Source: Spirochaetales bacterium
GTDB taxonomy: Bacteria > Spirochaetota > Spirochaetia > Treponematales > Treponemataceae
Length of the DNA stretch: 36,471 bases
Assembly (NCBI GenBank): GCA_003246765.1
Contig: QKDA01000132.1
Location: 1 to 36,471 of the forward strand
Direction of reading: 5' to 3'
Below the pieces are notes generated by a model. The model was not told where the DNA came from and did not search any database. It was given only the letters and a program-made list of their open reading frames with translations. This document shows, in pieces, positions 5,399 through 36,240 of this stretch (its first letter is position 1; each line of letters begins with the position of its first letter). A program made the position numbers and the translations under genes.

Positions 5399-5471
5399 CG
5401 GGATGTAGCCTAGAGGCTAAGGCGTCTGGTTTGGGACCAGAAGATCGTAGGTTCGAATCCTATCATCCCGA
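5399..5471 (+). tRNA. tRNA-Pro (anticodon TGG)
   Basis: Acceptor CGGGATG/CATCCCG, anticodon stem-loop TCTGG-TTTGGGA-CCAGA, T-arm GTTCGAATC. Confidence 0.95.
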
Positions 5472-5474
5472 GCT

Positions 5475-5548
5475 GGGATCGTAGCTCATCCGGATAGAGC
5501 AACTGCCTTCTAAGCAGTAGGTAGGGGGTTCGAGTCCCTCCGGTCCCG
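5475..5548 (+). tRNA. tRNA-Arg (anticodon TCT)
   Basis: Acceptor GGGATCG/CGGTCCC, anticodon stem-loop ACTGC-CTTCTAA-GCAGT, T-arm GGTTCGAGTCC. Confidence 0.95.
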
Positions 5549-11142: not shown

Positions 11143-12846
11143 TTATTCCTCCATCAGCCAGGTACGGATGAGAAGCGCCACGTCTTCCGGGTGCTCCTTA
11201 GCCATATTGATGGCGTTCTCCTGCAATTCGAGGCGCTTACGCTCCTCCACGGACATGGAAACCTCCATGCCCGCCTGTTCCGCTTCCCAGAGGGTTTTTT
11301 CGCGTTCCATCTGGTGCTTCCGCAGAAGTTCTTCTTCCTTAAGCCGGCGTCTCCTCTCGAGTTCCCGGGTAATCATGCGATAGATGATGAAGGCGACGAG
11401 AATGACCGCCAGGGCGATAAGGGAATAGAGGATCGTCTGTTCCGTCTGCTTCTTTTGCAGGTATGCGGCGTCTTCCTTCTCGAACTGGGCGCTTCGGTCA
11501 AACCTTATATTGAGTACGCTAACGGAATCGCCCCGGGCGCGCTGATAGCCGATGGCGTCCTGAACGGCCTTTGCCGCCGCTTGAAGCTCCTCAGCCTCAA
11601 TGGACTGGTATTCCCGCTCGATGGAACCGTTCTTAACGATAAATTGGCCGTTTTCGTCCCGTTTTTTAATCCAGGTTCCGTCAATATTCACCGAAACTGT
11701 CCTTCTTCCCATGGAGGGGCTGACGGTTTCGGTAGTATCCCTTTGACCCACAAGCTCGTTCTGTTTGACGATGGACTGCTCTGAAAGGCCGTAGAGATTT
11801 GACATGTCCTTGTAGGCCGGGGCGGTTTGCCCTTCCACCCCCGCAGGTCCCTCGGGATTGAAGCCGGACCCTTGCCACCGGGTGGTAGAGGTTTCCGAGG
11901 AGAGGGTAACGGAGGGAACGATCTGGGAATCGTCATAGGGGGTTTCCGGATTGTCCGGTTTTATGGTAGTGGGAAGGTAATCCCGCTGCTGCACGGACTT
12001 GTCGGACATGTCCATGTCGATCTTGATGTTGAGGTCCCGAACGCGGTCGATTCCGTAGATCTGCTGAAGGGCCCCGAGAATCTTCGCGCGGTACTGCGCC
12101 TCAAGCTGGGCAATGAGCTTTTGCTCCTTCTCGATCCTGGTAAGCCGGTCCCATTCCTTCATGCCCTCGAAATCGTTGAGCACGTTTCCCGAGCTGTCGG
12201 CAATGGTGATATTGGAATCCTGAAGGCCTTCAACCGCGAATTTGAGTATTTTCTGGATTCCTTCGACCTTTTTCCGGTTTGCGGTTATGTCGCTGCCCGG
12301 CTTCGGATAGAGAACGACGCTGGCGGTTACGGGATTCTGGTCTTCCGTGAACAGGGTGGTTTCGGGCATGTTTACGACCACGCTCGCGTCGTCCACGTCT
12401 TCCAGGGCCTTGATGTGCTGCCGTACTTCCTCAATGATCGCGCGCCGTTTATTCACGTTCCGCTCAAAGTCAGTAACGGTCCACCGCTCAATGTCGAACA
12501 ATGCCCAGGGATCGACGTTCTGGGGAATGAGGTCTTCCCGTATAAGAATGGAGCGCATCCGCCGGGCGGTGGCCTCGTCGGGAACGGAAATGATTCCGGT
12601 GGCGGATACGGAGCTGTGCACGTTTTCTTCGTTGAGCCGGACGATTATCGCGTCGCGTTTGGTCTCATCGGTGATGGGCGTGTCGATAAGGGGCACCATG
12701 GCGGGCGCCGATGAAACGGATAGGAGGACGACGATGCCGACGATCGCGGCAGCCGCTACGCCGCCGAGAATCAGCTTCTGGACGAGCGTCCACTTTCCCC
12801 ATAATCCGGTAATTTGCGAAACTATGCGTTTCACCCATTCGTTCAT
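11143..12846 (-). CDS. fliF: Flagellar MS-ring protein FliF
   Basis: N-terminal TM, YscJ/FliF region (VRQHIKALEDVDDASVVVNMPE), C-terminal TM, position upstream of fliG. Confidence 0.97.
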   Translation of the reverse strand: MNEWVKRIVSQITGLWGKWTLVQKLILGGVAAAAIVGIVVLLSVSSAPAMVPLIDTPITDETKRDAIIVRLNEENVHSSVSATGIISVPDEATARRMRSILIREDLIPQNVDPWALFDIERWTVTDFERNVNKRRAIIEEVRQHIKALEDVDDASVVVNMPETTLFTEDQNPVTASVVLYPKPGSDITANRKKVEGIQKILKFAVEGLQDSNITIADSSGNVLNDFEGMKEWDRLTRIEKEQKLIAQLEAQYRAKILGALQQIYGIDRVRDLNIKIDMDMSDKSVQQRDYLPTTIKPDNPETPYDDSQIVPSVTLSSETSTTRWQGSGFNPEGPAGVEGQTAPAYKDMSNLYGLSEQSIVKQNELVGQRDTTETVSPSMGRRTVSVNIDGTWIKKRDENGQFIVKNGSIEREYQSIEAEELQAAAKAVQDAIGYQRARGDSVSVLNIRFDRSAQFEKEDAAYLQKKQTEQTILYSLIALAVILVAFIIYRMITRELERRRRLKEEELLRKHQMEREKTLWEAEQAGMEVSMSVEERKRLELQENAINMAKEHPEDVALLIRTWLMEE

Positions 12847-12876
12847 GTTACCCTCCCGTTACAGAACGAACCTGTC

Positions 12877-12923
12877 GCTATATTAATGCGTTATACTATC
12901 ATACTATAACGCATTATTATAGC
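12877..12923. repeat. 47-bp near-perfect palindrome in the fliE-fliF intergenic region
   Basis: GCTATATTAATGCGTTATACTAT-C-ATACTATAACGCATTATTATAGC; 21 of 23 pairs complementary. Confidence 0.9.
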
Positions 12924-12928
12924 ACGTT

Positions 12929-13237
12929 TTACCGGGTTGTGGTAATTTCGTTCCAGCCTTTGATTACGCGGTCGATCACGGTCTGGGCAATCTTGAGGGA
13001 AAGATTGGCCTCGGCCATGGCGATCGTAACGTCATGCACGTCCACCGATTCCGGGTCGACAATCAACTGCTGCGCGATTTCCTCGCTCTTGGTCTGCTTC
13101 GCGTTCATGGCGTCGAAGGCGCCGAGGAGGGTTTGCTCAAAGCTCGCGGTTTCGCCGCGTACCGCCGTGTCGACCATGTCGGTGTTAGAAACCATGCGGC
13201 TGCGGAAATTGTCGACCTTTACGGGGGTGATTTCCAT
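12929..13237 (-). CDS. fliE: Flagellar hook-basal body protein FliE
   Basis: 102-aa protein with the FliE C-terminal pattern (VDVHDVTIAMAEANLSLKIAQTVIDRVIKGWNEI), in fli/flg context. Confidence 0.93.
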   Translation of the reverse strand: MEITPVKVDNFRSRMVSNTDMVDTAVRGETASFEQTLLGAFDAMNAKQTKSEEIAQQLIVDPESVDVHDVTIAMAEANLSLKIAQTVIDRVIKGWNEITTTR

Positions 13238-36114: not shown

Positions 36115-36183
36115 GGAAACGGGGGGCTCCCCTTTATTCAATCACTAATAACTGGGTTTCTGCACGAAGTAGTAAAATAAAAA

Positions 36184-36213
36184 GGGCAGTCTGGAATACT
36201 TACCAGACTGCCC
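36184..36213. terminator. Perfect 11-bp stem-loop at right IS end, terminator-like on the minus strand
   Basis: GGGCAGTCTGG (36184-36194) / CCAGACTGCCC (36203-36213); the minus strand continues CCCTTTTTATTTTA. Confidence 0.7.
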
Positions 36214-36240
36214 CTTTAACTTGGGTCAGGAGGCATACCT

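Follow-up and report, generated by a model that had tools for sequence, protein, structure and literature searches.

A putative internal promoter and predicted leader hairpins between fliE and fliF in a Treponemataceae flagellar locus

Related systems and the fliE-fliF locus

In most descriptions, the motility genes of spirochetes form long constitutive operons, and control is exerted after transcription. Internal sigma-70 promoters of the extended -10 type lie upstream of a gene within an operon and combine TGnTATAAT with a -35-like element. The gap between fliE and fliF analyzed here is alike in all three respects. It differs in that the promoter is predicted from sequence and in that its -10 element forms part of an arm of a long dyad. 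In the same family, the flagellar genes of T. denticola have sigma-70-type promoters (P flaA and P flaB1), which were mapped experimentally and precede other genes (PMC9481697); the one for fliF is putative. The large motility operon of B. burgdorferi has been described as constitutive, with one sigma-70 promoter (PMC11607428), so that internal promoters are not a given. A search of an open-access library found no paper that describes, for any spirochete, a promoter of fliF or a hairpin in its leader.

Two types of RNA element are also comparable. Hairpins that sequester the Shine-Dalgarno sequence (RNA thermometers, CsrA-type leaders) resemble a hairpin predicted at the fliF start: the stem closes over the Shine-Dalgarno sequence and the AUG, GGA is in the loop, and CsrA is encoded. 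The fliF hairpin differs in being predicted only, in having no Rfam match and in a pairing that extends into the coding sequence. Intercistronic mRNA-stabilizing hairpins share with the dyad a stable fold between two operon genes and the lack of a U-tract. The dyad, however, is A+T-rich, unrepeated in the genome and not conserved in sequence.

The window (the complete analyzed stretch of 36,471 nt from a Spirochaetales bacterium) has the gene order hslV-like, hslU-like, flgB-position ORF, flgC-like, fliE, fliF, fliG, fliH, fliI, fliJ. The names hslV and hslU are based on proteasome and AAA domains, and the flgB-position ORF, which has no Pfam hit, is named by position only. The original prediction placed the dyad between fliE and fliF. 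Pfam agrees with both assignments; that both genes are on the minus strand had been left unstated. Because of this orientation, the relevant RNA corresponds to the reverse complement, on which the gap reads TAA-AACGTGCTATAATAATGCGTTATAGTATGATAGTATAACGCATTAATATAGCGACAGGTTCGTTCTGTAACGGGAGGGTAAC-ATG. The features discussed below are:

11143-12846, minus strand: fliF, MS-ring protein, 567 aa (PF01514, PF08345)
12837-12871, minus strand: predicted fliF start-site hairpin, in which GTTCGTTC (12871-12864) pairs with GAACGAAT (12844-12837) and encloses the Shine-Dalgarno sequence GGGAGGG and the ATG (12846-12844)
12877-12923, minus strand: dyad with 23-nt arms and a 1-nt spacer, 21/23 pairs, single copy; predicted hairpin in RNA read through from fliE
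12903-12911, minus strand: P2, a degenerate second -10-like element, CGTTATAGT, recognized in the genus alignment, 13 bp downstream of P1
12916-12924, minus strand: P1, putative extended -10 element TGCTATAAT (TG-C-TATAAT, with TATAAT at 12921-12916), within the dyad's 5' arm; conserved in genus members and outside the genus
12929-13237, minus strand: fliE, 102 aa (PF02049)
12940-12945, minus strand: weak -35-like TTACCA within the 3' end of fliE, 18 bp from the P1 -10

The dyad and its promoter-like elements

The near-perfect 47-bp palindrome is present exactly as originally described. Its arms (12877-12899 and 12901-12923, 1 nt between them) are complementary at 21 of 23 positions, which is far beyond chance: the best score for 23-bp arms in 5000 dinucleotide shuffles of the 82-nt gap was 17. 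The contrast in composition with the surroundings is also real (28% G+C in the dyad, 55% in the window). On the minus strand, which is transcribed, the dyad and leader together fold with -37.5 kcal/mol (z -7.0). No second copy was found in the organism's own genome (3.28 Mb, 91% complete), and a repeat family or mobile remnant was rejected on this basis. The suggested origin from a miniature element is also not supported in view of the genus relatives, in which the orthologous gap is about as long (67-83 nt).

A census of 852 kb of the same genome revealed six dyads reaching 18 of 20 pairs. Four of the five others have G+C-rich cores between A/T runs and resemble intrinsic terminators; the fliE-fliF dyad is the only A+T-rich one of its strength. 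It was rejected as an intrinsic terminator, as already anticipated, since it has neither a G+C-rich stem nor a U-tract 3' of it on the minus strand. A terminator scan of the window did not list it. An Rfam scan of the window matched only two tRNAs (tandem genes at 5399-5548) and neither the dyad nor the start-site hairpin. A terminator-like inverted repeat, AAATAAAAAGGGCAGTCTGG/CCAGACTGCCCCTTTAACTT, is found at 36175-36222 of the window.

In P1, TG stands one base ahead of a TATAAT hexamer, as in sigma-70 extended -10 promoters. This putative promoter within the dyad had been overlooked in the original prediction. The orthologous gap was inspected in 11 genus genomes and about 120 further loci. 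Each of the 11 genus genomes with the fliE-fliF pair has an extended -10 element ahead of fliF. In the genus alignment, the 5' half of the dyad consists of tandem -10 elements 13 bp apart, TGTGCTATAAT-aa-TGTGCTATA(A/G/C)T; at the P2 position, several relatives read TGTGCTATA(C/G/A)T. Each aligned genus genome keeps at least one of the two elements intact, as expected of a promoter that has a redundant second -10. In a survey of 90 leaders, among which a few genomes are represented twice without effect on the overall picture, 25 have an extended -10 element (TG and a hexamer with at least 5/6 matches), while 2.3 are expected from shuffles. In a second family sample, it is found in 26 of 37 among the leaders listed (chance at most 0.06 each). 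The counts from these leaders are not independent, because the sequences are related. A considerable share of the wider family lacks the element (e.g., T. putidum-type gaps). The conservation of TTACCA is inseparable from codon conservation, since this -35-like element lies inside fliE. The exact sequence TGTGNTATAAT was also tried as a genome-wide promoter signature but was uninformative, with one match in the genome, located elsewhere.

The 3' arm of the dyad does not align within the genus and evolves fast. When the -10 was held fixed and the rest of the gap was shuffled, folding was clearly significant in the window (p 0.002, the lowest value that the test can give) and weakly so in two genus relatives (G002, 0.05; G001, 0.025) and in T. 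lecithinolyticum (0.027), these values being uncorrected for 29 tests. A significant fold of the gap was not seen in the other genus members by this test. In the FliF tree, G000 is firmly grouped only with G002, the sister genome, which has a much weaker dyad. A conserved RNA fold of the dyad was considered and rejected: RNAalifold, applied to the four best relatives, returned a weak and different structure with no compensatory pair. Because the 3' arm is not conserved, the fold is mostly non-significant in the genus and no compensatory change was found, the long dyad is a local feature of this lineage and a few close relatives, laid over a conserved putative promoter. Genome G080 (L226) has a near-perfect dyad, GACCTGTTCGATAACAGAGTTATCGAACAGGTC, in the gap upstream of fliF, where other members of its genus have TGTTATAAT.

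Proposed explanation and its rivals

We consider it probable that the gap contains a conserved internal fliF promoter, the -10 and initial region of which became a long hairpin in this lineage. The 82-nt gap would then supply a fliF-fliG-fliH-fliI-fliJ sub-operon with its promoter and leader. Transcription would initiate within the gap from P1, a sigma-70-type extended -10 promoter with P2 as a degenerate tandem, and would start at about 12910. The resulting RNA would carry the start-site hairpin, which would cover the fliF ribosome-binding site. The 47-bp dyad would have arisen in this lineage when the stretch from P1 to the start point acquired a matching 3' arm. Transcripts that are initiated further upstream and continue through fliE may form the dyad hairpin between the two cistrons. 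Those from P1 would be devoid of the outer 5' arm and would retain no more than a short hairpin at their 5' end. P1 would allow fliF to be transcribed independently of the rod genes, and the start-site hairpin would limit fliF translation in both types of RNA unless it is opened. If this is true, expression of the MS ring, from which the flagellum is nucleated, would be set apart from that of the preceding rod genes, at the level of both RNA and protein.

The dyad might instead act chiefly at the RNA level. As an intercistronic hairpin, it would protect or process the flgBC-fliE message or keep the translation of fliE and fliF separate. The strong fold of the transcribed strand is consistent with this, as are the folds in the window, G002, G001 and T. 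lecithinolyticum when the -10 is fixed, and the unrelated hairpins found in the same gap elsewhere (e.g., TGCAAGACTTT/AAAGTCTTGCA in T. putidum). We nevertheless regard it as rather unlikely, given that most genus members have no significant hairpin, that the alignment of the four best relatives contains no compensatory pair and that hairpins are enriched in other gaps, too. In the wider group, 32 of 86 fliE-fliF gaps fold at p<=0.05 (15 at p<=0.01), compared to 17 of 75 other gaps from the same loci (10 at p<=0.01) and 3-5 of 63 coding windows (p<=0.05). The hairpins of the fliE-fliF gaps are often unrelated in sequence. The control on other gaps weakens the notion that hairpins are special to this gap; because the excess is small, there is only a hint of selection for a hairpin specific to it. 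Of the mRNA hairpin between fliE and fliF that had been envisaged, a possible role in read-through RNA is left, as gaps fold better than shuffles, but other gaps do so as well. The T. putidum hairpin (L119; also L227) is a perfect one of 11 bp, with neither a U-tract nor an extended -10 element in the gap.

A realistic, if still doubtful, possibility is that the symmetry arose by chance and is neutral, through a snap-back or template-switch mutation that copied the promoter region into an inverted arm. This arm would now be decaying. Such an origin is compatible with the promoter explanation. In its favor, the 3' arm is fast-evolving and restricted to few relatives, and the dyad of G002 is much weaker; the weaker dyads of G001 and T. 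lecithinolyticum, which have other sequences, argue against it. According to the original prediction, a dyad without further copies and absent from relatives would be incidental. This would apply to the dyad itself but not to the promoter that is probably embedded in it. It is improbable that a repressor or activator uses the dyad as an operator to control the fliF promoter: a 19-bp symmetric core (TTATAGTATGATAGTATAA) does overlap P2 and the predicted start point, but the genome has no comparable site (one other at 2 mismatches) and the arms are not conserved in the genus. The operator suggested earlier is thus not sustained as a regulon site, while a site for a purely local regulator is compatible with this comparison. 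A bidirectional promoter, with -10 elements in both orientations, is very unlikely to be the source of the symmetry. Pseudo-symmetric promoters of this type have been reported as ubiquitous in prokaryotes (PMC12825309), and the plus strand of the dyad reads TATACT and TATATT. However, these elements lack a TG and are not kept in relatives, the 3' half being variable, and the symmetry far exceeds the length that two -10 boxes need.

The fliF start-site hairpin

Directly downstream of the dyad, the sequence reads GTTCGTTC-TGTAAC-GGGAGGG-TAAC-ATGAACGAATGG. A second hairpin is predicted here, GTTCGTTC...GGGAGGG...ATGAACGAAT, which had been overlooked originally. It has -14.4 kcal/mol (z -2.4), and its stem encloses the Shine-Dalgarno sequence and the start codon. 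This hairpin is more interesting than the dyad, which on its own is modest.

The sequence of the start-site hairpin is conserved. Among 41 distinct leaders with a CGTTC box, the outer stem has a predicted probability >0.5 in 34 (mean z -2.4). The distance from the box to the start varies from 17 to 42 nt, and the predicted pairing persists; some leaders have an extra hairpin in between. Codon 2 is AAC in 41 of 42 box leaders and codon 3 is GAA, also in 41 of 42, while 20.8 and 26.0, respectively, are expected from the gene's own codon use. The only AAT at codon 2 keeps the pair as G-U. Leaders without the box have AAC as codon 2 in 18 of 23 cases (14.2 expected). That codons 2 and 3 are used far beyond codon bias points to a nucleotide-level constraint beyond the protein in the start-site stem, with the caveats that the genomes are related and that early codons can be selected for other reasons. 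Compensatory changes were not found in 11 sequences; most pairs are invariant, and changes are one-sided (e.g., G-C to G-U). Support for the predicted hairpin comes from codon choice and variable spacing, not from covariation.

A covariance model of the leader (R1), with scores that are mostly sequence, has exactly one match per genome in 117 of 145 family genomes. The matches that were checked, in genus members and other loci with a previously established fliF position, lie at the fliF start. R1 was built from 11 alignable leaders, because MAFFT, when given all leaders, put the box at the wrong position in those that are shorter or longer. The lone genus member with neither fliE nor a leader match (G004, 92% completeness) may be non-motile or may have lost the locus.

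We tentatively propose, at less than even confidence, that the start-site hairpin is an undescribed, single-copy cis-regulatory RNA found throughout the Treponemataceae. It would gate translation of the MS ring, the first step of flagellar assembly, perhaps via CsrA, and the dyad hairpin in the same leader would tell read-through from promoter-initiated RNA. The genome encodes CsrA, and GGA sits in the predicted loop of the start-site hairpin. For T. denticola, it has been proposed that CsrA sites lie close to the Shine-Dalgarno sequence of flagellin genes (PMC9481697); that CsrA might act at fliF is a guess by analogy.

The leaders of some relatives (L067, 2957-3016; L102, 2958-3016; L028; L030) have the arrangement GGAGG...CTCTCC...GGGAGG between the box and the start. 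The CTCTCC could pair with either G-rich piece, similar to a two-state switch.
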